The notes under the pieces were generated by a model. It saw only the letters and a list, made by a program, of their open reading frames with translations. It was not told the DNA's origin and made no database searches. DNA of 33,025 nt from Burkholderiaceae bacterium (GTDB lineage Bacteria; Pseudomonadota; Gammaproteobacteria; Burkholderiales; Burkholderiaceae_E), in NCBI GenBank assembly GCA_024643785.1, contig JAHEMI010000019.1, positions 1 through 33,025 on the forward strand. Reading direction: 5' to 3'. Within the stretch, counting starts at the first letter, position 1, and each line of letters begins with the position of its first letter. Below are positions 7,923 to 26,053 of this stretch, in pieces. Position numbers and translations under genes: made by a program.

Positions 7923-8903
7923 TCAGTGTCGGCGCAGCACGATCAGGTCGGCGACCTGTCGCAGGCGCAGCGCCGCCGCGCCGAATGGTTCCAGGGCCTC
8001 GAGAGCCTCGCCGTGCAGCCGCATCGCGAACTGCCGCGCCGCCTCGATTCCCAGCACCGAGACATAGGTCGGTTTGCTGTTCGCCTCGTCCTTGCCGACC
8101 GTCTTGCCCAGGAGGGCGCTGTCGCCCTCGACGTCGAGAATGTCGTCGACCACCTGGAATGCCAGTCCGATCGCGGCGCCAAAACGCTCGAGCGCAGCCT
8201 GGTCATCCTGGGGCGAGACGTGGACGCTGTTTCCGGCCAGCCAGCCGAGCCGGATCGAAACCGCCAGCATCGCCCCGGTCTTGCGGCGGTGCATTTCCTC
8301 GATGGCGTCGCGATCGAGCTCGGCGCCGACCGCCGCCAGGTCGATCGCCTGGCCGCCAGCCATGCCGAATGAACCGGCGGCACGCGCCAGTTCCGCAATC
8401 ATCGTCGCCGCCGGCGGAGCGGCAGCAGCCGGCACCCCGGGGCGGGGCTGACCGAGCCCGGCGAGAACCTCGAACGCCAGCGCGTGCAGCGCATCGCCGA
8501 CCAGCAGCGCGGTCGCTTCGTCGTAGGCCACGTGGACCGTCGGCCGGCCGCGCCGCAGCACGTCGTCGTCCATGCACGGAAGATCGTCGTGGACCAGGGA
8601 ATAGGCATGGATCAGTTCGACCGCAGCCGCCACGGCATCCAGGGCCGTGCCGTCGGCCACCGCCAGTTCGCCGGCCGCGTAGGCCAGCAGCGGCCTGACC
8701 CGCTTGCCGCCGCCCAGCACGGCATAGCGCATCCCTTCGTGCAGGCGCGCCAGCGAGCCCTCGCTGGTGGGCAGCACGCGCTCGAGTTCGCGCTCGACCC
8801 GCGAGCAGCAACGTACGCTCCAGTCGGCAAACGACTCCTGGCCGGCGTCACCAGCGGCAAATTGAGCATTGGGGGCCATCATCGCCCCGTCAGTGACCGT
8901 CAT
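7923..8903 (-). CDS. ispA: Farnesyl diphosphate synthase (polyprenyl synthetase)
   Basis: A 326-residue all-alpha prenyltransferase joining isopentenyl diphosphate to dimethylallyl/geranyl diphosphate. The substrate-binding GGGKRVRP is near residues 64-71. The first aspartate-rich motif is DDLPCMDDD (106-114) followed by LRRGRPT, and the second is FQVVDDILDVEGD with GKD after it. The first motif has the two-residue insertion of bacterial type II FPP synthases. The N-terminus before about residue 25 is low-similarity, and a start at the later ATGs (codons 8 or 9) is possible. It lies between xseB and dxs with gaps of 8 and 12 bases. Confidence 0.93.
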   Translation of the reverse strand: MTVTDGAMMAPNAQFAAGDAGQESFADWSVRCCSRVERELERVLPTSEGSLARLHEGMRYAVLGGGKRVRPLLAYAAGELAVADGTALDAVAAAVELIHAYSLVHDDLPCMDDDVLRRGRPTVHVAYDEATALLVGDALHALAFEVLAGLGQPRPGVPAAAAPPAATMIAELARAAGSFGMAGGQAIDLAAVGAELDRDAIEEMHRRKTGAMLAVSIRLGWLAGNSVHVSPQDDQAALERFGAAIGLAFQVVDDILDVEGDSALLGKTVGKDEANSKPTYVSVLGIEAARQFAMRLHGEALEALEPFGAAALRLRQVADLIVLRRH

Positions 8904-8911
8904 CGCACCCC

Positions 8912-9169
8912 CTAGCGATCTTCCGCCGCGGCGGATTCGAACGGCTTGAGCACCTGGTCCTCGAGAATGCGGACCTGCTGCTGGGCGTCGGCCAGCAATT
9001 GGCGCGAGTGCGCTACCAACTCGGCCCCCTTGCGATAGGCCGCGAGCGAGTCTTCCAGCGAAAGCTCGCCGCCTTCCATCTTGCGCACGATCTCTTCGAG
9101 CTCGGCCAGGGCGCGCTCGAAAGTCGGCGCACTGGCAGGCGTGTCAGGGTTAGAAACGCGTTTAACCAT
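8912..9169 (-). CDS. xseB: Exodeoxyribonuclease VII small subunit
   Basis: An 85-residue protein with the XseB signature FERALAELEEIVRKMEGGELSLEDSLAAY, followed by KGAELVAHSRQLL and an acidic tail. XseB binds XseA to form the single-strand-specific exonuclease VII. The large subunit is not in this window, which is usual. I prefer the ATG at 9169; a TTG at 9181 in the same frame would add four residues. Neither start has a strong Shine-Dalgarno sequence. It is the first gene of the isoprenoid operon and divergent from the sulfurtransferase gene. Confidence 0.93.
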   Translation of the reverse strand: MVKRVSNPDTPASAPTFERALAELEEIVRKMEGGELSLEDSLAAYRKGAELVAHSRQLLADAQQQVRILEDQVLKPFESAAAEDR

Positions 9170-9376
9170 ATCCGGGGTCAACGACTATCCCGGGCAGGAC
9201 CGCAAGGCCGCCCGAGGAATTCGTGCAAAGGGTTGATTCTACTTCTCTTTGTCGCGGTGCGCAGGGTTGTGGTCATTGCCGCGAGGATGCTTCCGGCAAC
9301 TCCAATGAGGTATTCTCAACAGTTCCTGACGGTTTCCTGATTCGGGGCAGCCAACGCCCCGCAGACAACAAATCCC
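9170..9376. promoter_or_regulatory. Divergent promoter region between xseB and the sulfurtransferase gene
   Basis: A 207-base non-coding gap between two divergent genes must hold promoters for both. On the minus strand a TAGAAT (9241 to 9236) is a possible -10 for xseB. On the plus strand TATTCT (9311-9316) is a possible -10 for the sulfurtransferase. Neither has a good -35 at normal spacing, so the exact elements are guesses. Confidence 0.35.
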
Positions 9377-10228
9377 ATGACATTCACCACCATAATTTCT
9401 GCTGCCGATCTCGCCCGCGAAATCGGACGCTGCGTCGTCGTGGACTGCCGCCACGATCTCTTCGACCCTGAAGCCGGGCCGGCCGGCTACCGCGCGGGCC
9501 ACATTCCCGGGGCCTTCTACCTGCACCAGGACACCGATCTCGCCGGAGCCAAGACCGGTCGCAACGGCCGCCATCCGTTGCCCGGGCGCGAGGCGATCCG
9601 CAAGCTGCTCGAGCGCCTGGGACTGTCCGACGGCGACCAGCTGGTCGCCTACGACACTTCCGGCGGCCAGATGGCGGTACGCCTGTGGTGGCTGGCGCGC
9701 TGGATCGGGCACCATGAAGTAGCGGTGCTCGACGGCGGCCTTGCCGCCTGGCAGAGGGCGGGCCAGGAGCTGAGCGTCGCGGTGCCGCCGCAGCCGCAAC
9801 CCGGTGAGCTCGCGCTGCGTGCGTCGCTCGCGCCCAGCATCGATGTCACCGGCGTGCAGGCCGCGCTTGCCAGCGGCACCCCGACCATCGTCGACGCCCG
9901 CACCGCCGAGCGCTATCGCGGCGATGCCGAGCCGATCGACCCGGTCGCCGGTCACATCCCCGGGGCGATCAATCGCCCGATGCCCGATAACCTGCAGCCC
10001 GACGGCCGCTTCAAGGAGGCGGCGGTCCTGCGCGCCGAGTTCGCGGCGCTGCTCGGTGATGTCGCCCCGGCCAACGTCGCCCATCACTGCGGCTCGGGCA
10101 TCGCCGGCTGTCACAACGTGCTGGCAATGGAACTCGCCGGACTGGGCGGCTCGCTGCTGTACCCGGGATCATGGAGCGAGTGGTGCGCTGACCCGAACCG
10201 GCCGATCGCCACGGGGGCCGCGCCCTGA
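9377..10228 (+). CDS. Rhodanese-type sulfurtransferase (two-domain)
   Basis: A 283-residue protein with two rhodanese domains. The first (1-135) has VVDCRHDL and YRAGHIPGAFYLH but carries Asp93 in AYDTSGG where a catalytic cysteine would be, as usual for the inactive domain. The second (155-283) has IVDARTAERYRG, AGHIPGAINRP and the active loop HHCGSGIAGC, with Cys238 as the sulfur-carrying residue. The CGSG loop resembles 3-mercaptopyruvate sulfurtransferases more than thiosulfate rhodaneses, but substrate choice cannot be settled here. No signal peptide is seen, so it is cytoplasmic. The Shine-Dalgarno sequence is weak. Its stop overlaps the start of the next gene (TGATG). Confidence 0.9.
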   Translation: MTFTTIISAADLAREIGRCVVVDCRHDLFDPEAGPAGYRAGHIPGAFYLHQDTDLAGAKTGRNGRHPLPGREAIRKLLERLGLSDGDQLVAYDTSGGQMAVRLWWLARWIGHHEVAVLDGGLAAWQRAGQELSVAVPPQPQPGELALRASLAPSIDVTGVQAALASGTPTIVDARTAERYRGDAEPIDPVAGHIPGAINRPMPDNLQPDGRFKEAAVLRAEFAALLGDVAPANVAHHCGSGIAGCHNVLAMELAGLGGSLLYPGSWSEWCADPNRPIATGAAP

Positions 10229-10836
10229 TGGCGCGCCTGATCTTCTTCTGCGGCCATGCCGGCGCCGGCAAGACCACGCTGGCCAAGCTCGCCGTGCCGC
10301 TGCTGCACGAGCGCACCGGCGAGAGCTTCTGCCTGATCGACAAGGACACCCTCTATGGCGAGTTCAGCTCACGGGTGATGGGGCTGCTCACCGGCGATCC
10401 CGACGATCGCGACAGCCCCACCTATCTCGACAACCTGCGCGACCGGGAATACTCGGGGATGATCGACGTTGCCCGTGAAAACCTCGAGCTCGACGTGAAC
10501 ACGGTGCTGGTGGGGCCGTTTTCGCGCGAAGTGAAGTCACGCCTGGTATTCAATCCGCTCGCCATGCGCATTCCGGTGACCACCGCGATCAGCCTGGTCT
10601 GGGTGGGGCTCGACGAGGACACTGCCAAGGAGCGGATCATCGCCCGCGGCGACCATCGTGACCGCTACAAGCTCGAACACTGGGACGAGTACCGGACCCG
10701 GCGTTTCCATCCCGACCAGGCGCAGTACCCGGAAGTCATTCATTACGACAACACCAACTTCGACCAGCAGGAGTTCGCCGCCCTGGTGGAATGCCTGTCA
10801 GATCCCTCGCGGGGCTGCCGGCCCGAGCACCGCTGA
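10228..10836 (+). CDS. P-loop ATPase/kinase-like protein
   Basis: A 202-residue protein starting MARLIFFCGHAGAGKTT, a Walker A loop at residues 9-16. CLIDKDTLYGEFSSR follows where small-molecule and polynucleotide kinases place an acceptor-binding aspartate. A basic lid-like stretch RIIARGDHRDRYK lies near 133-145. The overall layout resembles APS kinase, zeta-type or nucleoside kinases, and database names are usually AAA-family ATPase. The true substrate is unknown. The gene overlaps the sulfurtransferase stop, so the two are translationally coupled and may act together. It ends one base short of the convergent ferritin-like gene. Confidence 0.8.
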   Translation: MARLIFFCGHAGAGKTTLAKLAVPLLHERTGESFCLIDKDTLYGEFSSRVMGLLTGDPDDRDSPTYLDNLRDREYSGMIDVARENLELDVNTVLVGPFSREVKSRLVFNPLAMRIPVTTAISLVWVGLDEDTAKERIIARGDHRDRYKLEHWDEYRTRRFHPDQAQYPEVIHYDNTNFDQQEFAALVECLSDPSRGCRPEHR

Positions 10837-10837
10837 G

Positions 10838-11413
10838 TCAGTCGCCAAGCATTGGGGGATCGTCGTCGCGGGCCCAGCCCGGTTCGGGCTTGGGGGTACG
10901 CGCCAGCCATTGCTGGATCAGGCTGACGTGCTCCTCTTCCTCCTCGGCCATTTCGGCCGCTCCTGAACGGACCTTCTCGTCGCTGGCCTCGCGCGCCACC
11001 GCGGCGTAGAACATTTGCGCGCCCTGCTCGTTACGCAGGGCAATTTGCAGCGCATGGTAGGGCTGCATCAGGTAATGCAGATCGGAGTGGTCGCCCGACT
11101 CGGGCCCTTCCAGCCCCAGCCAGCGGAACCCGCCCGGCGGCGGCGGGGGCGGCGCGTTCCAGCGCATCGCTTCGACAATCTGCTGGGCGTGGAGGTGTTC
11201 GATGCGCGAGAGCTTGCGAAACAGTTCGGCAACCTCGACGTTATTGTGGGTCTCCATGGCATCGGCGAACTCGGCATAGCGCTCGGCCGCTTCGGCCTCC
11301 ATCGCGTAAGCGTAGACCATCAACTCCTCGACGTCGCCGATTCCGGCGGCGACCTCGGCCGCCGCTCCCGAGCGGCCACCCGCTGTTCCCAGGCCAAGCT
11401 TGTCGTCACTCAT
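10838..11413 (-). CDS. Ferritin-like (rubrerythrin-type) diiron protein coupled to korB
   Basis: A 191-residue helical protein with the diiron ligand pattern of the ferritin/rubrerythrin superfamily. Glu41 lies in EAEAAERYAEFAD, Glu72 and His75 in the first ExxH (RIEHLHAQQ), Glu129 in LRNEQGAQMFY, and Glu159 and His162 in the second ExxH (EEEEEHVSL). Between the helix pairs is a loop with six prolines (88-93). There is no C-terminal rubredoxin domain. Its ATG overlaps the korB stop as ATGA, so it is made together with the 2-oxoacid oxidoreductase. Roles could be peroxide or oxygen removal for the oxygen-sensitive enzymes, or a small subunit of the Kor complex. I cannot decide between them. 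Confidence 0.82.
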   Translation of the reverse strand: MSDDKLGLGTAGGRSGAAAEVAAGIGDVEELMVYAYAMEAEAAERYAEFADAMETHNNVEVAELFRKLSRIEHLHAQQIVEAMRWNAPPPPPPGGFRWLGLEGPESGDHSDLHYLMQPYHALQIALRNEQGAQMFYAAVAREASDEKVRSGAAEMAEEEEEHVSLIQQWLARTPKPEPGWARDDDPPMLGD

Positions 11414-12246
11414 AGCTCGAACTCCAGTTCCAGGTCGTTGACGCTGCGCACCGCCCCGACGCCCGGAGCGCGGTAGGGGATGCGGTCGCCGCTGAAGAGC
11501 ACACCGATGTTGAAACCGTCGTCGCTCATCAGTCGCCTGGCGGCCTGCGCCGGATCCCTGGTAGTCGCTACCGGCGAGGGCCGGACGACGTTCTTCCATT
11601 CACGCTGTTCGGGCCGGAAGGTCACGCACGGCGAGATCACCTCGACGAACGAGAATCCCGGCGTATTGATTGCCTGGGCGATGATCGCCGCGGTACCGTT
11701 GGGGTCGCCCGCGAAGGCGCGCGCCACGAAGTTGGCGCCCGCCGCCAGGCCGATGGCCAGCGGATGGAACAGCGGCGCGCCGGTTCCCCACGGCGATATC
11801 TTCGATTTCCAGTCAGGCTCGGTGGTCGGCGACGGCTGGCCCTTGGTCATCCCGTAGACGTGGTTGTCCATGACCACATAGGTCATGTCGACGTTGCGGC
11901 GGCAGGCGTGCAGGAAATGGTTGCCGCCGATCGAGTAGCCGTCGCCATCCCCACCGGCGACCACTACCGTGAGCTCGGGCCGCGCGACCTTGACCCCGGT
12001 CGCTGCCGCCAGTGCCCGGCCATGGACGCCGTGGAAGCCGTAGCAGCTGGTGTAGGCCGGGATTCGCGACGAGCAGCCGATGCCCGAGACCACGACCACT
12101 TCGTCGGGCACCAGTTCGAGCTGGGCCAGCGCCTTGGTGACCGACGAGAGCACCGAATAGTCCCCGCAACCGGGGCACCAGATCGGCTTGTAGTCGGACT
12201 TGAATGCGGCCGGAGTGATCCGTTCGATCACGCTAGTGGTAGTCAT
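11410..12246 (-). CDS. korB: 2-oxoacid (2-oxoglutarate):ferredoxin oxidoreductase, beta subunit
   Basis: A 278-residue TPP-binding beta subunit. The motif GDGDGYSIGGNH (99-110) followed by NHVYGMTKGQ binds thiamine diphosphate and Mg. Cysteines 24 and 27 (WCPGCGDY), 58 (GIGCSS) and 207 (SPCVTF) are placed as ligands of the single [4Fe-4S] cluster of this subunit type. With KorA it oxidises a 2-oxo acid with CoA, giving acyl-CoA, CO2 and reduced ferredoxin. In the anaerobic benzoyl-CoA pathway, 2-oxoglutarate oxidation of this kind re-reduces the ferredoxin used by the ring reductase. It starts 37 bases after korA with GGGGAG as ribosome site, and overlaps the ferritin-like gene. Confidence 0.92.
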   Translation of the reverse strand: MTTTSVIERITPAAFKSDYKPIWCPGCGDYSVLSSVTKALAQLELVPDEVVVVSGIGCSSRIPAYTSCYGFHGVHGRALAAATGVKVARPELTVVVAGGDGDGYSIGGNHFLHACRRNVDMTYVVMDNHVYGMTKGQPSPTTEPDWKSKISPWGTGAPLFHPLAIGLAAGANFVARAFAGDPNGTAAIIAQAINTPGFSFVEVISPCVTFRPEQREWKNVVRPSPVATTRDPAQAARRLMSDDGFNIGVLFSGDRIPYRAPGVGAVRSVNDLELEFEL

Positions 12247-12283: not shown

Positions 12284-14023
12284 TCAGCTGCTCCAGGATT
12301 CGAATACCGCCAGCAACTCGGCGGGCCGGAACGGCAACGGCCCGGGCAAGGCGTGGCTGCGCACCTCGGCCGGCAGGTCGTAGTGCGCCCGCAGGTAGCG
12401 GTAGAGTTGCCCGCCGTGGTTCTGCTCGACCACTATCAACCGTTGGACGCCCGCCAGCGCCGCGGCAAACTGCTCGGGCAGGATCGGCGCCAGGACCCGC
12501 AGCGAGATCAGGCGCGCGCTGCCGCCCTGGTCGCGCAGCCGGGCCAGCGCCTCGCGCACCGGGCCGGTGGCGGAACCGAAGGTGATCACGGCACAACTGC
12601 CCTCGCCCTCGAGATCCGCCCAGTTGGCGCTGTAGTCGCCCTGGGCGATCTTGCGCGCGCGCTTCTCGAGCTGGCGATGATGGTCGGCCGCGCCGCTCGA
12701 CGGAATGCCGCGCTCGTTATGTTCGAGGCTCTCGGCGATATAGGCCACGCCGCGCGTGCCCGGCAGCGCCATTGGCGAGACCCCCGATGGGGTATCGGCA
12801 TAGCGCCGGTAGCCCGCTTCATTGGCGCCGGGAATGAGCCGTTCGGTCTGGTAGTCGAGCTCGGGCGGGCGGTCGATCACCGCCTGGGTCTGGCCGAAGA
12901 ACTGGTCGGAGAGCACGATCACCGGGGTCTGCAAGGTCTCGGCGAGGTGGACCGCCCACTGGGTCGTCGCCAGGCAGTCGGCAATCGAGTTCGGTGCCAA
13001 CACCACCCGCGGCGCGTCGCCGGGCAGACCCCAGAGCGCGAGGTTGAGGTCGCTCTGTTCGCTCTTGGCCGGAATGCCGGTCGACGGTCCGCCGCGCATC
13101 ACGTCGACGACCACGATCGGAATCTCGGCGATCACCGCCAGACCGAGCGCCTCGGTCATCAATGCCAGTCCCGGGCCCGCGGTCGCAGTCAGTGACGGCG
13201 CGCCGCCGAACGACGCCCCGATGATCATGTTTATCGAGGCCAGTTCGTCTTCGGCCTGCACCAGGGCGCCGCCGACATCGGGCAGCGCCGAGGCGAGCCA
13301 TTCGAGCACCTCCGTCGCCGGCGTGATCGGGTAGGCGGCCACAAAGCGCACGCCGCCGCGCACGGCACCGAAACCGGTCGCCTCGTTGCCGGAGAGCATC
13401 CAGCGGCGCGGCGGCGATTCAGCCGGGACCACCTGCCGGATTCCTGCCGCCGCCGCGGCGCTGGCCCCGGCAGCGTGTCCTTCGCGCGCCGCCGCGACGC
13501 TCGCCGCGAGCCGGTCGCGGCCGCGCTTGAGCGAGCGATCGATCACCAGTTCCACGGCCGCGAGCGGAATGCCGATTGCCCCGGCCGCAACACCCAGGGC
13601 GATCATGTTCGGCCAGCTGCCGGGAATCGCCTTGGTAATCGCCTTGAAGCCGACGTCGAAAACGCTCGCGCCGGTCCGGGCAAAGGCCTCGGGGACCTCG
13701 CCCGCGGCCGCATCGCTGATCACGCAACTCGAAGCATCGAGCGGAATTTCATCGCTGAAACGGTGCACGTTCTGCCAATCGAGCGCGATCAGCAGGTCAC
13801 AGCGGTCGTCGAGCCCGCTGACCTCGGTCGCCGCGACGCGCAACAGCGCGGCGGCCTCGCCGCCGCGAATTTGCGGGCCGCTGGTGCGCACCATCAAGCC
13901 GTAGAGCCCGGCACGCGCTGCCGCCTCCAGCAGCAACGTCCCAGCCGTCATGACCCCCGCCCCGCCGCTGCCGGTAAGCGCTACCGACACGCCGCGTCCG
14001 GCGCCCATTTCCCCGTTGCCCAT
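12284..14023 (-). CDS. korA: 2-oxoacid (2-oxoglutarate):ferredoxin oxidoreductase, fused gamma-alpha subunit
   Basis: A 579-residue fusion. Residues about 10-190 form the gamma domain (LTGSGGAGVMTAG, RTSGPQIRGGEAAALLR). Residues about 215-579 form the alpha domain with the pyrimidine-binding FVAAYPITPATEVLEWLA, the EDELASINMIIGASFGGA block, TATAGPGLALM and GGPSTGIPAKSEQSDL. This gamma-alpha order is the usual KorA form. Substrate 2-oxoglutarate is inferred mainly from linkage to the bcr operon; related enzymes use pyruvate or branched 2-oxo acids. I chose the ATG at 14023 because GGGAG lies upstream. The open frame extends further to a TTG, which is unlikely. It is the first gene of a leftward korA-korB-ferritin operon divergent from had. 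Confidence 0.92.
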   Translation of the reverse strand: MGNGEMGAGRGVSVALTGSGGAGVMTAGTLLLEAAARAGLYGLMVRTSGPQIRGGEAAALLRVAATEVSGLDDRCDLLIALDWQNVHRFSDEIPLDASSCVISDAAAGEVPEAFARTGASVFDVGFKAITKAIPGSWPNMIALGVAAGAIGIPLAAVELVIDRSLKRGRDRLAASVAAAREGHAAGASAAAAAGIRQVVPAESPPRRWMLSGNEATGFGAVRGGVRFVAAYPITPATEVLEWLASALPDVGGALVQAEDELASINMIIGASFGGAPSLTATAGPGLALMTEALGLAVIAEIPIVVVDVMRGGPSTGIPAKSEQSDLNLALWGLPGDAPRVVLAPNSIADCLATTQWAVHLAETLQTPVIVLSDQFFGQTQAVIDRPPELDYQTERLIPGANEAGYRRYADTPSGVSPMALPGTRGVAYIAESLEHNERGIPSSGAADHHRQLEKRARKIAQGDYSANWADLEGEGSCAVITFGSATGPVREALARLRDQGGSARLISLRVLAPILPEQFAAALAGVQRLIVVEQNHGGQLYRYLRAHYDLPAEVRSHALPGPLPFRPAELLAVFESWSS

Positions 14024-15378: not shown

Positions 15379-16482
15379 ATGAGTTCGACCACCAAGCAGC
15401 TGAACAACCACGACCTATGTGACGGCGCGGTCTACCCCGGCGTGCGCTACGAGAAACGCCCGGCGCGCACCCCCGACGGCAAGGTGGTCGATGGCCTCTA
15501 CAACGCCTGGATCTGGCTCGACAATCCGACCCAGTTCAACTCCTACACCACCGACATGGTCAAGGGCGTGATCCTGGCGTTCCGGGCCGCCTCGAACGCG
15601 CGCGACGTCAACGCGGTGGTCTTCACCGGGGTCGGCGACAAGGCCTTCTGCACCGGGGGCAACACCAAGGAATATGCCGAGTACTACGCCGGCCACCCGC
15701 AGGAATACCGCCAGTACATGCGCCTGTTCAACGACATGGTGTCGTCGATCCTGGCCTGCGACAAGCCGGTGATCTGCCGCGTCAACGGCATGCGCATCGG
15801 CGGCGGCCAGGAAATCGGCATGGCCTGCGACTTCTCGGTAACCCAGGACCTGGCGCGCTTTGGCCAGGCCGGACCGAAACATGGGTCGGCGCCGATCGGC
15901 GGCTCGACCGACTTCCTGCCGGTGATCATCGGCGCCGAGCGGGCGATGGCCGCCTGCGTGCTGTGCGAGCCGTTCTCGGCCCACGAGGCCTACTACATGG
16001 GGATGCTGACCGCGATCGTCCCGGCGCTCAAGGTCGACGGCAAGTACGTCGCCAATCCGCTGGTCGAGACCACGCTGGCCGCCGATGAATTCGGGCGGAT
16101 CAGCTTCGGCCGGCCCAAGACCGGTGAGGCGCTGGCGCAGGGCAAGGCGCTGATGGCCAAGGGCACGGTCGACCTCGCGGCGCTCGACGAGAAGATCGAG
16201 GAACTGTGTGCCAAGCTGCTGATGACCTTCCCCGACTGCACCACCAAGTCGCTCGAGGAACTGCGCAAACCCAAGCTCGACGCCTGGAACCGCAACAAGG
16301 AGAATTCGCGCGCCTGGCTGGCGCTCAACATGATGACCGAGGCCCGGTCCGGCTTCATCGCCTTCAACGAGGGCCCGAAGAACGACCGCGAAATCGATTT
16401 CATCGCCCTGCGCAAGGCCATCGCCGCCGGCACCGGCTGGAGCGAGGAACTGCACCTCAGCATCCAGCCGAAGAAGGCATGA
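15379..16482 (+). CDS. oah: 6-oxocyclohex-1-ene-1-carbonyl-CoA hydrolase (ring opening)
   Basis: A 367-residue crotonase-superfamily member, longer than ordinary enoyl-CoA hydratases, as expected for Oah/BamA. Typical blocks are YNAWIWLDNPTQFNSYT near residue 42, the first oxyanion-hole region KAFCTGGNTKEYAEYYAGHP and the second VNGMRIGGGQEIGMACDFSV. The segment FGQAGPKHGSAPIGGSTDFLP is a well-conserved hallmark of ring-cleaving hydrolases. The enzyme adds water to the oxo-cyclohexenyl-CoA and cleaves the ring to 3-hydroxypimelyl-CoA, the step often used as a marker of anaerobic aromatic degradation. It lies 45 bases after had with CGGAGAG as ribosome site. Its stop overlaps the dch start (ATGA). 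Confidence 0.96.
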   Translation: MSSTTKQLNNHDLCDGAVYPGVRYEKRPARTPDGKVVDGLYNAWIWLDNPTQFNSYTTDMVKGVILAFRAASNARDVNAVVFTGVGDKAFCTGGNTKEYAEYYAGHPQEYRQYMRLFNDMVSSILACDKPVICRVNGMRIGGGQEIGMACDFSVTQDLARFGQAGPKHGSAPIGGSTDFLPVIIGAERAMAACVLCEPFSAHEAYYMGMLTAIVPALKVDGKYVANPLVETTLAADEFGRISFGRPKTGEALAQGKALMAKGTVDLAALDEKIEELCAKLLMTFPDCTTKSLEELRKPKLDAWNRNKENSRAWLALNMMTEARSGFIAFNEGPKNDREIDFIALRKAIAAGTGWSEELHLSIQPKKA

Positions 16483-17282
16483 GTCCGGCTGATCAAACCG
16501 TCGGCGGCGGCGCTGCGGAAACGCCGCTGCGCTCCTGGCTCGAGGCCGACGGCGCGCTGCTGCGGCTGCGACTGGCGCGGCCCAAGGCCAACCTGGTCGA
16601 TGCTGCCATGATCGCGGCGCTCGACGCCGCGCTCGTCGCGCATCGTGACCGTGCGGGACTTCTCGGGGTGCTGCTCGACGCCGATGGTCCGCACTTCAGT
16701 TTTGGCGCAAGCGTCGAGGAACACCTGGCCGAGCAATGCGCCGCGATGCTCGCCGCGCTGCACGGCCTGGTCCTGCGCATGATCGATTTTCCGGCGCCGA
16801 TCCTGGTCGCAATCCGCGGCCAGTGCCTCGGTGGCGGGCTGGAAGTGGCGATGGCCGGGGGGTTGCTGTTCGCCGCCGCCGACGCGAAATTCGGGCAGCC
16901 CGAGATCCGGCTTGGGGTGTTCGCCCCGGCGGCGAGCGTGCTGCTGCCGGAACGGGTCGGCCAGATCGCTGCCGAAGACCTGTTGCTCTCGGGACGCACC
17001 ATCGACGCCCGGGAGGCCCAGGCCCTTGGGCTGGTCGCCGCAGTCGCCGACGATCCGGCCGGCGCGGCGCTCGCGTGGTTCAACGCCAACCTCGCGGGCA
17101 AGAGCGCAGCGACGGTTCGCTACGCGCTGCGTGCGGTGCGCGGCGACTACGCGCCGCGGGTACGCGCCGGCATCGCCCGGGTCGAGCGTCTCTACCTCGA
17201 CGAACTGATGACCGGCCATGACGCCAACGAGGGGCTGGACGCATTTCTGGCCAAACGGCCCGCGGTCTGGAAGCACGCCTAA
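16479..17282 (+). CDS. dch: Cyclohexa-1,5-diene-1-carbonyl-CoA hydratase
   Basis: A 267-residue crotonase-fold hydratase. The acyl-CoA oxyanion-hole segments are SFGASVEEHLAEQC near residue 74 and IRGQCLGGGLEVAMAGG near 113. FGQPEIRLGVFAPAASVLLP follows, where Dch differs from fatty-acid enoyl hydratases, which carry catalytic glutamates in this area. Dch adds water 1,4 across the conjugated diene made by benzoyl-CoA reductase, giving 6-hydroxycyclohex-1-ene-1-carboxyl-CoA for Had. Length and position between oah and bcrC fit. The ATG at 16479 overlaps the oah stop, implying translational coupling. The first 15 residues are poorly conserved. Confidence 0.93.
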   Translation: MSPADQTVGGGAAETPLRSWLEADGALLRLRLARPKANLVDAAMIAALDAALVAHRDRAGLLGVLLDADGPHFSFGASVEEHLAEQCAAMLAALHGLVLRMIDFPAPILVAIRGQCLGGGLEVAMAGGLLFAAADAKFGQPEIRLGVFAPAASVLLPERVGQIAAEDLLLSGRTIDAREAQALGLVAAVADDPAGAALAWFNANLAGKSAATVRYALRAVRGDYAPRVRAGIARVERLYLDELMTGHDANEGLDAFLAKRPAVWKHA

Positions 17283-17295
17283 GGAGCACCATGAG

Positions 17296-18465
17296 ATGAA
17301 TGAAGTTGGCCAAATCATCGAGCGCTGTCTGGCTCTGCACGAAGACCTCGACTTCACCGCGGTCAAGCAATGGAAGGAGGCTCACCCGGGCGCCAAGGTG
17401 ATTGGCTACATGCCGGTATACGTGCCGCGCGAACTCATCCATGCCGCCGGCATGCTGCCGGTCGGGGTGCTGGGCGGCGGCGACGGGCTCGAGGTCATCC
17501 AGGGCGACGCCTACTACCAGAGCTACATCTGCCGGATTCCGCGCTCGACCATCGAACTCGGCCTGACCGGACGGCTCGACTGCATCGACGGGATGCTGTT
17601 TCCCTCGATTTGCGACGTGATCCGCAATCTCTCGGGAATGTGGAAGATCCTGTTCAAGGACAAGTACGTGCGCTACTTCGACGTCCCGCAGAACTACCAG
17701 GACGAAGTCGGCGGCCAGTACTACGAGCACGAACTCGAGATCCTGCGCCACGACCTCGGCGAGCTCGCCGGCAAGCCGATCAGCGACGAGGCCCTGTGCG
17801 CCTCGATCGCGGTCTACAACGAGAACCGCCGAGCGATCAACGAGCTCTACGCGTACCGCGCCGCCAAGCCCTGGCAGGCGCCGACCTCCGAGGTCTACCT
17901 GCTGATCAAGGCCGGCATGATCCTGCCGGTCGAAGAGCACACCGCGATGGTGCGCGACTATCTCGCCGCCACCGCGGCAGTCGAGCGGCCGATGCGCGAC
18001 AACGCCCGGGTGGTCATCAACGGCACCTTCTGCGAACAGCCGCCGCTCACGCTGATCAAGGCCATCGAGATGTCGGGCTGCTACGTCGTCGACGACGACT
18101 TCATGCTGGTCACCCGCTGGCTGCTCGAGGACGTCGACACCTCCGGCGAGCCGCTTGCGAACCTGTCGCATGCCTTCCTCCATCACTCGGCGTCGACCTC
18201 GGCCAAGTACGAGACCACGCGCGAGGAGAAGGGCCAGTTCCTGCTGCGCCAGATCAAGGATCGCGGCGCCGAGGGGGTGGTGTTCGCCGCCCCGTCGTTC
18301 TGCGACCCGGCGCTCCTGGAGCGCCCGATGCTCCAGGACGTGCTGACCCGTCACAAGGTCCCGCACACCGCCTTCAAGTATTCCGAGAACACCGGCCAGA
18401 TGGCTCCGATCCGCGAGCAGGCCGGTACCTTTGCCGATTCGATCAAGTTGTGGAGCGCCGCATGA
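17296..18465 (+). CDS. bcrC: Benzoyl-CoA reductase subunit C
   Basis: A 389-residue subunit of the class I, ATP-driven benzoyl-CoA reductase, belonging to the HgdB/2-hydroxyacyl-CoA dehydratase family. The N-terminal region has GYMPVYVPRELIHAAGMLPVG. Candidate [4Fe-4S] ligands are Cys79 (YICR), Cys96 (LDCID) and Cys106 (PSICD), the usual three-cysteine spacing of the family. BcrB and BcrC together form the module that binds benzoyl-CoA and receives electrons from the ATPase module BcrAD. The length is close to the Thauera protein. The ATG at 17296 is preceded by AAGGAG. A competing ATG at 17291 opens only a two-codon frame. The stop overlaps bcrB (ATGA). Confidence 0.95.
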   Translation: MNEVGQIIERCLALHEDLDFTAVKQWKEAHPGAKVIGYMPVYVPRELIHAAGMLPVGVLGGGDGLEVIQGDAYYQSYICRIPRSTIELGLTGRLDCIDGMLFPSICDVIRNLSGMWKILFKDKYVRYFDVPQNYQDEVGGQYYEHELEILRHDLGELAGKPISDEALCASIAVYNENRRAINELYAYRAAKPWQAPTSEVYLLIKAGMILPVEEHTAMVRDYLAATAAVERPMRDNARVVINGTFCEQPPLTLIKAIEMSGCYVVDDDFMLVTRWLLEDVDTSGEPLANLSHAFLHHSASTSAKYETTREEKGQFLLRQIKDRGAEGVVFAAPSFCDPALLERPMLQDVLTRHKVPHTAFKYSENTGQMAPIREQAGTFADSIKLWSAA

Positions 18466-19784
18466 GCACAGTCCAGATTTCGATGCCGGAAAACCGCAAG
18501 AAGCCGGTCGTCCAGAAAGAGGACGCAATGCTCCTGCAGAAGGAGATGATCAACCAGAACTACACCGACCTCTCGACCGCCCACGAGCGCGGCAAGAAGG
18601 TCGCCGCCACCTTCGTTCCGGGCAACCTCAACGAACTGGTGATGTGCTTCGACTTCGAACGCAGCCTGCCCGAGACCAACGCGCTGCAGAACGCGCTGCG
18701 CAAGAGCTCGGGCAAGATGATCATGAATGCCGAGCGTGACGGCCAGTCGGAGGACGTCTGCACCTACGTCAAGGCCGACATCGGGATGATGCTCGGCGGC
18801 GAGATCGGCCCGACCGGCCAGAAGCTGCCCCGCCCGGACCTGCTGCTGCTTTCGTACACCGGCTGCTTCACCTTCATGAAGTGGTTCGAGCTGCTGCGCC
18901 AGAAATTCGGCGGCGAGGCGGTGATGCTGCAGGTGCCCTACCAGGGCGACGGCAACATCAACAAGAACATGCGCGACTACGTCGTCAAGCAACTGAAGGA
19001 AACCGTGATCCCGGCGATGGAGCGGATCTCGGGAGTCAAGTTCGACATCGACCGCCTGCGCCAGTACATGCGCGAGTCGGCCAAGGCCGAAGACGACCTG
19101 GTCAAGGTGCTGGAAGCGGCCAAGAACCGGCCCTCGCCGATCGACGCCTACTTTGGCGCGGTCTACTACATTGGCCCGATCTTCACGGCCTTCCGCGGCA
19201 CTCCTGAAGCCACCCGCTACTACGAGGTGCTGCGCGCCGAGGTCGAGGAACGGGTGCGCCTGGGCAAGGGTCCGGTAACGCCCGAGGGCGAGCTCAACGA
19301 GGAGAAGTATCGCCTGGTGATCGAGGGTCCGCCCAATTGGACCCACTTCCGCGATTTCTGGAAGATGTTCTACGACGAGGGCGCGGTGGTGGTCTCGAGC
19401 ACCTACGCCAAGGTCGGCGGGGTCTATGACAACGGCTTCCGCCACGACCCCGACCATCCGCTCGAGTCGCTCGCCGAGTACTGCCTGGGCTGCTACACCA
19501 ACCTCAACCTGCCCTCGCGCATCGACATGATCTGCAAGTACATCGAGGAATACGACGCCGACGGCCTGCTGATCAACTCGATCAAGAGCTGCAACAGCTT
19601 CTCGGCGGGACAGCTGCTGATCCTGCGCGAGGTCGAGCGGCGCACCGGCAAGCCGGCGGCGTTCATCGAAACCGACCTGGTCGACCCGCGCTACTTCTCG
19701 GCGGCCAACGTCAAGAACCGGCTGGAGAGCTATTTCCAGATGATCCAGCACAAGCGCGCCGCCAACGCCGCGGCGCTGCGCTAA
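18462..19784 (+). CDS. bcrB: Benzoyl-CoA reductase subunit B
   Basis: A 440-residue partner of BcrC in the same HgdB-like family, forming the substrate-reducing half of the enzyme. Recognisable parts are [22 protein letters not shown] near residue 105, [16 protein letters not shown] with Cys134, [17 protein letters not shown], and [16 protein letters not shown] near the C-terminus. Together these supply the cysteines for its iron-sulfur cluster. The first 20 residues are basic and variable, with no signal peptide. The start overlaps the bcrC stop. There is an 11-base gap with a purine-rich AAAGGGGG before bcrA, so the reductase half and the ATPase half are initiated separately. Confidence 0.95.
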
Positions 19785-19795
19785 AGGGGGCCGCC

Positions 19796-21136
19796 ATGCG
19801 CTGCTTCATCGGCATCGATCTCGGCTCGACGACTACCAAGGCGGTGGTGATCGACGAGGACCGTAACGTACTTGGTCGCGGCATCACCAATTCGCGCTCG
19901 AACTACGACACCGCCGCGGCCATCGCCAAGCAGGAGGCGCTGGTGAACAGCCGCTTCTTCCTGCTGCGCCAGGCGCTGGCGCCGGCGAGCGGACTCAACG
20001 GCAACCTCGACACCTTCCTTGGCCAGCTCGAACGCGACTTCCGGCTCGAGCAGTTCATCGAGCAGCTGAGCGACCTGGAAGCGACCAGCGCGCGCAACCT
20101 CGAGACGGCGCGCTTCGGCGATCTGACCGCACCGGTGCGCGCGGCGCTCGAGGAAGTATTTCGCCAACTGCACGCCTTGGCGCCGTCGCTGTTCGCGCCC
20201 GGGGCCGAACGCAAGAGCGACTTCTTCCGTGACATCGCGGGCAGCAGCTACCTCTCGATCAGCGAGCAAGTGGCCAAGGAAGCCGAGCTGCGCTACGACT
20301 ACCTGCTCAACATCTTCGACCGCTCGATCATCGAGGTCGAGAACCGGGTCTACGGCGACTCGATGAGCGGCCACCTGCTCGCAGCCCTTGACCGCACTTT
20401 CGTGGCGATGCCCGAGCTCGCGAACCTGGCCGACAAGCTGCGGGCGCCGTTTCGCAGCGTGATCGAGCTGCCCCTCGAGGAGGCCTACGTGGTCGGCACC
20501 GGCTACGGCCGGGCCCGGCTGCCGTTTTCCAAGGAACACATCCGCTCGGAGATCCTCTGCCACGGGCTGGGCGCGCACATGATGCATCCCGGCACCGCGA
20601 CCGTGCTCGACATCGGCGGCCAGGACACCAAGGCGATCCAGGTCGATCCGCACGGCATCGTCGAGAGCTTCCAGATGAACGATCGCTGCGCTGCGGGTTG
20701 CGGGCGCTACCTCGGCTACATCGCCGACGAGATGAACATGGGCCTGCACGAACTCGGCCCGATGGCCATGAAGGCGACCAAGTCGATCCGGATCAACTCG
20801 ACCTGCACCGTGTTTGCCGGCGCCGAATTGCGTGACCGCCTGTCGCTCGGCGAGAAGCGCGAGGACATCATGGCGGGGCTGCACCGGGCGATCATCCTGC
20901 GCGCGATGTCGATCCTGGCCCGCTCGGGCGGCATCCGCAACGAATTCACGTTCACCGGCGGCGTGGCCAAGAACGAAGCCGCGGTGAAGTCTCTGCGCGA
21001 CCTGGTCCGCGAGAACTACGGCGAGGTCACGCTGAACATCAATCCTGATTCGATCTACACCGGGGCGCTCGGCGGCGCGACCTACGCGTGGCGGGCAGTC
21101 GTCGAGGAAGGCAAGGCAGCGGAGGCACGGGCATGA
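19796..21136 (+). CDS. bcrA: Benzoyl-CoA reductase subunit A (ATPase/electron activator)
   Basis: A 446-residue BadF/BadG/BcrA/BcrD-type ATPase of the ASKHA fold. The first phosphate loop is [16 protein letters not shown] (5-20) and the second is [14 protein letters not shown] (271-284). Cys298 (NDRCAAGC) and Cys337 ([11 protein letters not shown]) are the expected ligands of the [4Fe-4S] cluster bridging BcrA and BcrD. Compared with BcrD it has an extra segment of roughly 150 residues between the two loops. That long form is typical of Thauera-type BcrA; the Azoarcus BzdP/BzdQ pair is shorter. ATP hydrolysis here drives the low-potential electrons to BcrBC. Its stop overlaps the bcrD ATG. 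Confidence 0.95.
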
Positions 21137-21978
21137 CCTACACCATCGGACTAGACATCGGGGCCGGCGCGATCAAGGCGGTCCTGTTCGACAATGCCGG
21201 CGCTGAGCACACCTGGGTGGCCCGGCGCTGCGAGCGGATCCGGCGGCGCGACACGCTCGAGCTGGCGCGCGAATGCTACGAATCAGTGCTCCAGGACGCC
21301 GGGATCGGCGCCGACGAAGTGGCCTACGTCGCAACCACCGGCGAGGGCGAGAGCGTCAAGTTCGCCACCGGCCATTTCTATACCATGACCACCCACGCGC
21401 GCGGCGCCATCTTCCTCGACCCCACGGCCAATGCCGTGATCGACATCGGCGCCCTCAACGGCCGGGCGATCTACGTCGATGAGCGGGGCAAGGTGCTGGG
21501 CTACAAGATGACCAGCCAGTGCGCGTCGGGCTCCGGGCAGTTCCTCGAGAACATTGCCCGCTACCTCGGCGTCGCCATCGAGGAGATCGGCCGCCTGTCG
21601 ACGAAGTCCGAGAACCCCGAGAAAGTCAGCTCGATCTGCGCGGTGCTCGCCGAGACCGACGTCATCAACATGGTGTCGCGCGGCATCGCCACCAACGACA
21701 TCCTCAAGGGCATCCACATGTCAATGGCCTCACGGCTGGCCAAGCTTCTCAAGGTCACCGGAATCACCAAGGGCAAGGTGCTGCTTACCGGCGGGCTGGC
21801 GCTGGACATCGGCTTGCTGGCCGCGCTGCAGGAAGAGATGGCCAATGAGAAGATGGAAGATCTGATTGCGAGCAACCATCCGGATTCGATCTATGCCGGC
21901 GCCATCGGCGCGGCGATCTGGGGCGCCTTCAGGCATGAAAAACTGACCGCGATGGGCGGGGCACGGATAGCGGCCTAG
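21133..21978 (+). CDS. bcrD: Benzoyl-CoA reductase subunit D (ATPase/electron activator)
   Basis: A 281-residue ATPase partner of BcrA. The first phosphate loop is [16 protein letters not shown]. The second is [16 protein letters not shown], which lacks the GGQDxK form seen in BcrA. Cluster-ligand cysteines are Cys130 ([12 protein letters not shown]) and Cys169 ([11 protein letters not shown]), one pair per subunit, as expected for a shared [4Fe-4S] cluster. [19 protein letters not shown] closes the fold. It starts at an ATG overlapping the bcrA stop, so A and D are coupled one to one. It is followed after 28 bases by fdx. Confidence 0.95.
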
Positions 21979-23297: not shown

Positions 23298-23792
23298 TCA
23301 ACCGGCGTAGTCGAGCACCAACTCTGCGTCGTCATCATCGCCGAGGATGTTCTCGAGAGCCGGCAGCAGCGCCATTTCCTCTTTCTGGATGTGTGAAATC
23401 ATACGCTCGACGTATTCAAACCCGAGCATCTTAAGTGTTCGCCACTCGGCCCCTTCAAATTGTTCGGACAGTGAAATTTGGAGCAACCCGCCAAGTTCCG
23501 ACGCAACCTGGCGGATGATGCTGTGTTCGTCGCTGAGGATCTGGACGATGGTTCCGTCGCCGCTGGCTTCGAGGCGGGGGAAAAGCGACTGTTCCTCGAA
23601 ATCGAAGTGATGTTCGATTTCTCCTCTTATCCCGGCGCCAAGGTCGCGTGCGATGCTGCGCCATTGATCGTCGCCGACGAGGGGCGGATCACGATAGCCA
23701 ACCATTGCCTGCTCAAAACGGCCGAGCAGATCGACGACCGCGACATGCTCTTCATGCAGCCTCCTGGTCGTCTGGCGTTCGAAATTCATCAT
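23298..23792 (-). CDS. Hemerythrin HHE-domain protein
   Basis: A 164-residue four-helix hemerythrin-like protein. Candidate diiron ligands are His13 and His16 (LHEEH), His61/His62 with Glu66/Glu67 (EIEHHFDFEEQ), His90 (SDEHSII), and His134 and Glu138 (ISHIQKEE). The spacing fits the HHE cation-binding family, whose members bind oxygen or nitric oxide, or sense iron and redox state. There is no fused signalling domain and no signal peptide. Two adjacent ATGs follow a strong GAGGAGG. It sits between the PaaK-type ligase and the tandem GNAT gene, with gaps of 76 and 22 bases, and is probably co-transcribed with them. Confidence 0.88.
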   Translation of the reverse strand: MMNFERQTTRRLHEEHVAVVDLLGRFEQAMVGYRDPPLVGDDQWRSIARDLGAGIRGEIEHHFDFEEQSLFPRLEASGDGTIVQILSDEHSIIRQVASELGGLLQISLSEQFEGAEWRTLKMLGFEYVERMISHIQKEEMALLPALENILGDDDDAELVLDYAG

Positions 23793-25191: not shown

Positions 25192-26053
25192 TGCCACCTC
25201 CCTGCACTGTTGTCCTCACGCCCCGCACCGGCAGATGCGGCAGCCCGAACCCCTGGTTGTAGTCGGCCCGCGTCAGCACGACCCACTTGAGCCGCGCGCC
25301 GGCGTACAGCGCCAGCAGCGCTGCCATGGTTAGCGGGATCGTCTGGTAGGCCGGCCAGGCGGCCGACCCGGCGAGCACGATCGGCACCACCGTGCCGTAG
25401 ATCCAGGCCAGCGGATGCGCGGCCGCGAGGGCGCGCCGCGCGGCCGGAACCAGCGCGGCATCGACCCGCACCCGGTAGCGCCTCCAGGCGAGATGACGGG
25501 CCGCGGTCGCGAGCGCCAGCGCCAGCCCCCAGGAGGGCGCAACCGGTGCGCCGCCAGTCAGCACCAGGCGCAGGATCAGGCCCAGCGCCAGGCCTTCGAC
25601 CAGCGAAGTGGCGAGAATGAATCGCAGCAGTGCCGGCTCGCGCCAGGCCGGAATGCCGACCGAGCGGCGCAGCATCCGCGCCTGGCAATAGACGAACACC
25701 GCCGCGGTGACGCCAGCGGCCACGTACAGCGCCGCGGTCCCGGTCCACCAGGCCAGCGCCCCGAACGCGAAGGTCGCCCCCGCAACGTAGGCCTCGCGGG
25801 TCATCCACGACTGGCGCAGGTTGATGTAGACGTTCATCGCCCGCAGCGGACGACCGATCTCGAACCACACGGTGGTCAGGCCGATCGCCATCACCACCAG
25901 GCCAACGATCAACGCCGCTGCCGACGGGTCACCACCGAGCGCGAACAGGGCGTTGACGACCACCAGTCCGCCGCCGATGCCGCCGGCGGTGAAGTTGGTC
26001 GCGGCGCGCTCGTCCCAGTGCTGCTGCTTCCAGGGTTTGGGTCCGAAGCTCAT
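25181..26053 (-). CDS. padD: Phenylacetyl-CoA:acceptor oxidoreductase, membrane anchor subunit
   Basis: A 290-residue very hydrophobic protein with about eight predicted membrane helices, for example around FTAGGIGGGLVVVNALFAL and AALIVGLVVMAIGLTTVW. It fits the NrfD/DmsC-type quinone-reactive anchor group. After the second helix comes FEIGRPLRAMNVYINLRQSWMTRE, a conserved loop in such anchors. It would pass electrons from the iron-sulfur subunit to the quinone pool. Its start overlaps the stop of the preceding iron-sulfur subunit gene (ATGA), so stoichiometric synthesis is likely. The name PadD rests on this operon context. Alone it would only be called a DMSO-reductase-type anchor. Confidence 0.78.
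   Translation of the reverse strand: MSFGPKPWKQQHWDERAATNFTAGGIGGGLVVVNALFALGGDPSAAALIVGLVVMAIGLTTVWFEIGRPLRAMNVYINLRQSWMTREAYVAGATFAFGALAWWTGTAALYVAAGVTAAVFVYCQARMLRRSVGIPAWREPALLRFILATSLVEGLALGLILRLVLTGGAPVAPSWGLALALATAARHLAWRRYRVRVDAALVPAARRALAAAHPLAWIYGTVVPIVLAGSAAWPAYQTIPLTMAALLALYAGARLKWVVLTRADYNQGFGLPHLPVRGVRTTVQGGGNGK

Follow-up and report, generated by a model that had tools for sequence, protein, structure and literature searches.

The window analysed here, a stretch of 33,025 nucleotides from a Burkholderiaceae bacterium, carries a class I benzoyl-CoA reductase locus of the bcr type, its Oah, Dch and BcrCBAD proteins (6/6) all scoring over their NCBIfam equivalog cut-offs. Between korA and oah the plus strand also holds an alcohol dehydrogenase-like gene, judged by eye. 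On the minus strand the gene order is korA, korB and then a short gene that we call flp, for ferritin-like protein (FLP). KorA scores 548.4 bits against TIGR03710 (cut-off 482.75) and matches the solved chain 6n2n_A at E 7.4e-101, while KorB is over the cut-off for PF02775, falls just under that for TIGR02177 (261.3 bits, cut-off 261.9) and matches 6n2n_B at E 7.5e-65. A hemerythrin HHE-domain protein (PF01814), possibly a second O2-binding diiron protein, is encoded beside the bcr genes on the minus strand at 23298-23792.

The first-pass annotation had described an ATGA shared by the korB stop and the start of the next gene, with no mention of the strand; we confirm this overlap and place it on the minus strand (Table 1). 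On the plus strand the reading of the same interval is interrupted by an in-frame stop. From the overlap we infer translational coupling of korB and flp, earlier worded as the two being locked. A single overlap of 4 nt is ordinary, and ATGA is also found at 26050-26053 of the window where another pair of ORFs meets; the conservation of the overlap, set out below, is beyond chance.

Table 1. Features of the korA-korB-flp region and of FLP, in window coordinates
Feature	Position	Strand	Remarks
flp	11413..10838	minus	Third gene of korA-korB-flp; ORF of 191 aa plus stop
korB, 2-oxoacid:ferredoxin oxidoreductase beta subunit	12246..11410	minus	TIGR02177, PF02775, 6n2n_B
korA, fused gamma-alpha subunit	12284..14023	minus	Start codon uncertain; ORF extends to 14125
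ATGA overlap	11410..11413	minus	korB stop TGA 11412..11410, flp start ATG 11413..11411
SD-like GGAG	11422..11425	minus	Inside korB 3' end, 8 nt upstream of flp start
oah, dch, bcrC, bcrB, bcrA, bcrD (benzoyl-CoA pathway)	15379..21978	plus	Divergent from korA
E39, predicted metal ligand	11297..11299	minus	Aligned ligand pattern; putative role
E72-xx-H75, predicted metal ligands	11189..11200	minus	Aligned ligand pattern; putative role
E129, predicted metal ligand	11027..11029	minus	Aligned ligand pattern; putative role
E159-xx-H162, predicted metal ligands	10928..10939	minus	Aligned ligand pattern; putative role
H56-N58, loop after first bundle helix	11240..11248	minus	Conserved in linked rows
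Six-proline run P88-P93, between second and third bundle helices	11135..11152	minus	Local, not a family feature
E105, crossover-loop glutamate	11099-11101	minus	Conserved in intact FLPs
H113-P118 (HYLMQP), loop before third bundle helix	11060..11077	minus	Y114 conserved
C-terminal tail W180-D191 (WARDDDPPMLGD) with DxDPP	10841..10876	minus	Proposed docking peptide; docking putative

The ORF, a Pfam match and a solved structure all bear out the earlier description of a 191-residue ferritin-like protein. FLP scores 51.4 bits against PF02915, the broad Rubrerythrin family of Pfam (gathering cut-off 22.8), and stays below the cut-off for ferritin, PF00210 (22.3 bits, cut-off 24.5). Pfam likewise upholds the stated lack of a rubredoxin domain and, with zero cysteines in its 191 residues, FLP lies outside the classical two-domain rubrerythrins. 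It also scores under the NCBIfam cut-offs for the rubrerythrin equivalog NF045767 (24.7 bits, cut-off 200) and for the encapsulated ferritin-like cargo of the EncB family, NF058679 (28.4 bits, cut-off 90). The closest solved structure is 2oh3 (E 5.7e-36, FLP residues 28 to 188 matched), a COG1633 ferritin-like protein of Magnetospirillum magnetotacticum that is uncharacterised by its title. An AlphaFold2 model, built on 37 sequences and with a mean pLDDT of 85, has bundle helices at residues 28-55, 59-83, 118-142 and 146-172, a poorly predicted N-terminus (pLDDT 35, residues 1-10) and a C-terminus in coil, where the block mean pLDDT is 91 for residues 171-180 and 77 for 181-190, with residue 191 at 50.

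Against solved chains, VIA-align places the model nearest to 2oh3 (Z 18.4, rmsd 2.3 over 145 residues, 35% identity; next best Z 14.2). The HYLM loop is kept in 2oh3, whereas its position 72 is S, giving a site of E-S-H-E-E-H, and its tail reads DADPA in place of DxDPP. Rubrerythrin shares the four-helix fold (1ryt, Z 14.2) and the doubled E and ExxH, but neither it nor its one-domain relatives (ferriperoxin, sulerythrin) have the korB linkage or the DxDPP tail; bacterioferritin and ferritin resemble the FLP model in fold at Z about 13. The ligand pattern E, ExxH, E, ExxH is bacterioferritin-like, and rubrerythrins have an extra third-helix glutamate where FLP has A132. A four-helix bundle with E and ExxH repeated, the mark of the ferritin-like superfamily, is found in the FLP model and residues, and the fold and broad family of FLP are already known. 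Both ExxH motifs reported earlier are in place (E72-H75 and E159-H162); E39 and E129 complete the expected ligand set. The six-proline loop between the helix pairs is real as well (P88-P93), but it is not conserved, the full run being common to only L003 and L004 in the scan loci described next, and we rejected it as a family feature.

The pairing of korB with a ferritin gene, which might have proved to be confined to this strain, is widely conserved. Scanning genome contigs with FLP yielded 58 FLP loci; in 57 of them the gene immediately upstream, in the same orientation, is korB, the exception being L058, and 56 have korA in view as well. The korB/FLP overlap is exactly 4 nt at 52 of these 58 loci, a gap of 5-16 nt is seen at four, and at L060 the start is unclear; in a further set of loci read, 14 of the 16 with an FLP reading have the 4-nt overlap. 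Two additional samples, both including the window's own genome, are free of selection for FLP because the search started from KorA. In the class sample (369 genomes, 22 with KorA at E <= 1e-130) FLP lies just downstream by coordinates in 15 genomes and, after reading the DNA of the remaining seven, beside korB in 19 of the 22. The four added in this way are G271, where korB is split over two contigs and FLP stands behind the korB end, G223 and G300, with diverged FLPs at -4 nt from korB, and G357, with a very weak FLP at -4 nt. The phylum sample (398 genomes, five with KorA at E <= 1e-120) has FLP beside korB in four, and not in G640. Within the order of G409, korB at E <= 1e-70 occurs in 42 of 119 genomes at 45 places, and among the best 30 of those 45 an FLP reading stands at -4 nt in 27 and none in three. 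The pairing with korB persists down to KorA identities of 46%. The locus is also carried by the benzoate-degrading denitrifier Azoarcus taiwanensis NSC3 (L052). Plasmid records gave no FLP match by tblastn.

FLP is tied to a subset of KorA genes and is not obligatory for KorAB. Among 61 relatives, 37 places are above the KorA cut-off and FLP follows about 1 kb downstream at 9; at the other 28 no FLP match at E <= 1e-3 was found within 20 kb, a search in which decayed FLPs could be missed, and a tenth FLP adjoins a KorA cut by the contig end (G003). A further KorA above the cut-off in the genome of the window, on contig C1, has no FLP. Judged by their scores, the FLP-linked KorAs appear to be one group. 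No FLP follows korB in G325 (L063) and G640 (L081), both with bcr genes, nor in G309 and G363. When nine selected genomes were searched in full, no FLP was found in G309, G640 and G860, and in G325 and G363 the only FLPs lie away from korB; such a search misses decayed FLPs, since G357 gave no match despite the weak FLP beside its korB. As to the three korB without FLP in the order of G409, G877 has FLP by a second korB, G878 has it on a different contig and G860 has none. Because FLP is missing in some KorAB genomes, KorAB probably works without it, at least there. On a KorA+KorB tree of 47 rows, absence of FLP beside korB amounts to six changes. The slot after korB is filled at L063 by an aldehyde:ferredoxin oxidoreductase-like gene (8062-10416, plus strand), and at L107 and L131 korAB without FLP is convergent to 2[4Fe-4S] ferredoxin-like and coaD-like genes, all judged by eye.

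The first-pass annotation had looked to bcr/bzd loci for the pair, and a special tie to these is not supported. The fetched DNA shows KorAB-FLP without any bcr, oah or dch match at L031, L041, L049, L082, L083, L085-L089 and L093, among others, the flanks in this check being a few kb, with more distant bcr genes possible. A fixed special role of FLP in aromatic degradation was rejected on these loci. At L087 a succinate dehydrogenase/fumarate reductase membrane gene is divergent to korA.

Comparison of the predicted metal site with the C-terminal tail was made on an alignment of 99 korB-linked FLP rows with 17 FLP paralogues not linked to korAB. Left out were, on the linked side, L058 (no korB), L060 (start unclear) and L059 (C-terminus off the contig) and, on the other, L002 (the same gene as L080) and L074, L076, L077 and L098 (multi-piece matches with ligand columns unaligned). 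The 99 linked rows stand for fewer independent cases, since L088 and L125 denote one place and identical rows occur among them. We call a row intact if it has the five ligand letters E39, H75, E129, E159 and H162, and conservation of these in the intact rows is therefore by definition. The five-ligand set is intact in 92 of the 99 linked rows, which argues that the metal matters in most lineages; position 72 in these 92 is E in 61, S in 28 and G in three. It is broken in seven (L066, L067, L068, L082, L087, L113 and L119). By profile, six of the seven are clear family members (40 to 135 bits), and L068 is a weak one, with 6.8 bits against the A1 profile and 28.8 against one built from nearer relatives.

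The tail behaves differently from the ligands. Written as D, 0-2 residues, D or E, PP, 1-5 residues and the end, a DxDPP-type tail is present in 98 of the 99 linked rows, including six of the seven with broken ligands, and only L068 lacks it. All 17 unlinked paralogues keep the five ligands and none (0/17) has a DxDPP-type tail; nor was such a motif found in the paralogue pieces searched after residue 100. The split is not perfectly sharp, as the tails of 2oh3 and of the unlinked L058 (DPDEA) are both related but incomplete; L058, from Paramagnetospirillum caucaseum, encodes a similar FLP with no korAB in its 16.6 kb locus. Six of the seven ligand-lost rows also retain the -4 nt overlap (L066, L067, L068, L087, L113 and L119), and L082 has no clear start. 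Within the seven, H75 and E105 are kept in none, E159 in one, H162 in two, E129 in three and E39 in five, while A35, H56, N58, W98, Y114, D183 and P186 are kept in all and D185 and P187 in six. H56 and N58 are kept in 98% of the 92 intact linked rows and Y114 in 99%, the latter in four of the 17 paralogues. E105, which is conserved in intact FLPs and in 15 of the 17 paralogues, behaves like part of the metal site because it is lost in all seven ligand-lost rows although it is outside the definition of intact, and it may belong to that site.

On the 47-row KorA+KorB tree, ligand loss requires four changes, with a minimum of three imposed by the starred branches; an earlier 44-row tree without L113 and L119 gave two changes for ligand loss and four for absence of FLP. 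Both are quick searches with SH-aLRT support only and some long branches, and in the 47-row tree L122 fills a third of the columns. Searches for more ligand-free FLPs in the orders of G300, G350 and G223 found korB in 1/20, 1/3 and 1/5 genomes, in each case the centre genome itself.

Several further features of the family came to light. Many members of the wider family (L058, 2oh3 and many paralogues) have S, G or A in place of the E of the first ExxH, and judging from these residues the metal site is variable there. Lys/Arg-rich, histone-H1-like N-terminal tails of 25-103 residues occur in 25 of the 99 linked rows (L005 to L047; 26 if L082 is included, which we excluded as an artefact of start choice), and the window's FLP has none. 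Unlinked paralogues stand as neighbouring copy pairs in L094, L095 and L096, and the window's genome has one of its own (G000, contig C49, 25561-26028; L002 and L080) with ligands intact and no DxDPP tail. At L089 a peroxiredoxin gene (PF08534; 5449-5925, minus) comes directly after FLP on the same strand.

Our preferred reading is that FLP would be a dedicated partner of one KorAB subfamily, either as its third subunit or as an assembly or shielding factor specific to KorB, and we give this a probability of just over one half (about 0.52). FLP would be translated off the korB end through the ATGA overlap and would thereby arise beside the nascent beta subunit, which in two-subunit Kor enzymes carries TPP and a [4Fe-4S] cluster. 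It could then dock on KorAB by one end of its bundle together with the DxDPP tail. H56, N58, Y114 and the tail probably form one face, since the topology of a ferritin-type bundle would put them at the same end; the tail, whose coil is predicted at fair confidence (pLDDT 77), may also pack on FLP itself. The bundle would in most lineages hold a diiron-type site able to remove O2 or peroxide beside the electron exit, and this site would be optional, having apparently decayed on several occasions without loss of the place in the operon, of some fold residues or of the tail. Once bound, FLP might shield the KorB cluster or the electron exit, aid assembly or, with metal, remove O2 or peroxide, and such removal would be an optional second function. 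A metal enzyme with decaying ligands is normally lost. Binding via the tail end, selected by linkage to KorAB, is the simplest account, because the decayed FLPs keep slot, overlap and tail and the free relatives keep the metal site without the full tail. Gene order and motif retention suggest, and do not prove, that FLP binds KorAB. A sharper version, which we regard as less likely than not, has the ferritin fold recruited as a third KorAB subunit whose DxDPP peptide would sit at the ferredoxin-docking face and gate or shield the electron exit, with the diiron site as a removable add-on, so that in lineages such as L066, L067, L082 and L087 the slot after korB would encode a "pseudo-ferritin" subunit free of metal.

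The first-pass annotation had offered two roles, a scavenger of O2 or peroxide and a small third subunit, and the patterns in these sequences support the second as the better. Scavenging retains the intact ligands of most linked rows in its favour, and is weakened as the whole function because broken-ligand FLPs stay beside korB with the tail kept in nearly all. In full, the proposal is that FLP is a KorAB-associated O2 or peroxide reductase whose diiron site is fed by reduced ferredoxin or KorB, the tail serving only as a tether, which we consider somewhat unlikely. There are precedents for electron delivery to such sites: ferriperoxin, which is rubrerythrin-like but has no rubredoxin, acts as a peroxidase with electrons from NADPH and FNR and is required for growth in air (PMC3317640), and a hydrogenase-rubrerythrin chimera couples H2 oxidation to H2O2 reduction (PMC11926857). 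The five-residue core and the peroxiredoxin neighbour at L089 also fit such a reductase, but the seven ligand-broken rows do not, and the site varies among the 92 intact rows, 31 of which have S or G at position 72.

Quite unlikely, in our estimation, is an iron-donating or folding chaperone for the [4Fe-4S] cluster of KorB that stays outside the mature enzyme. The start of FLP translation at the korB end would agree with this, a ferritin-type site could deliver iron, and a Kor enzyme purified with two subunits, as reported, would fit; however, ligand-broken FLPs could hardly deliver iron, though help in folding remains conceivable, and KorAB without FLP exists. Least probable is a passive operon companion, in which case FLP would be a stress ferritin of general function, on one transcript with KorAB and making no contact with it: related operons can keep a conserved gene order simply through descent, and both unlinked paralogues and KorAB genomes without FLP are known, but the pairing persists across KorA divergence and the full DxDPP tail has been found only in linked members.

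The two-subunit KorAB enzymes (Thauera KorAB; 6n2n) are the closest to KorA and KorB of this locus, which differs from them in the third, ferritin-fold gene that overlaps korB. As purified, KorAB of Thauera aromatica is reportedly made of two subunits only. The third subunit of the Azoarcus evansii 2-oxoglutarate:NADP oxidoreductase, named earlier in this connection, is reportedly a flavoprotein of about 60 kDa, which would be too large to be FLP. Extra small subunits on a 2-oxoacid oxidoreductase have a parallel in the five-subunit OGOR/PFOR of Aquificaceae, but those are described as a CODH/ACS-like delta and a ferredoxin-like epsilon and not as ferritin-like (PMC10052474), and on that published description we rejected them as FLP homologues. 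In Thauera, KorAB is stated to supply reducing power to benzoyl-CoA reductase (PMC9973337). The words ferritin and rubrerythrin have 0 occurrences in PMC9973337, PMC10052474, PMC3578206, PMC9765128 and PMC4268860. Among the matches listed, the open-licence literature names no ferritin-like protein of KorAB, and no paper found there has "2OH3" and "Magnetospirillum" together; nor, among the same matches, did we find the tie to KorAB, the full tail of linked members only or the ligand-free forms.

In Thauera, the ferredoxin that KorAB reduces powers dearomatisation by benzoyl-CoA reductase, and enzymes related to KorAB work in central metabolism. KorAB-type enzymes are generally oxygen-sensitive, and how they work in facultative bacteria is not well explained. 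If FLP is such a partner, heterologous expression of KorAB may have missed a component. Decayed forms of FLP escape annotation, and five of the seven ligand-lost FLPs have no Pfam match over cut-off. A conserved, unnamed partner would provide a handle here, in that deletion of the tail, ligand mutants and the natural ligand-free FLPs would separate binding from diiron function.
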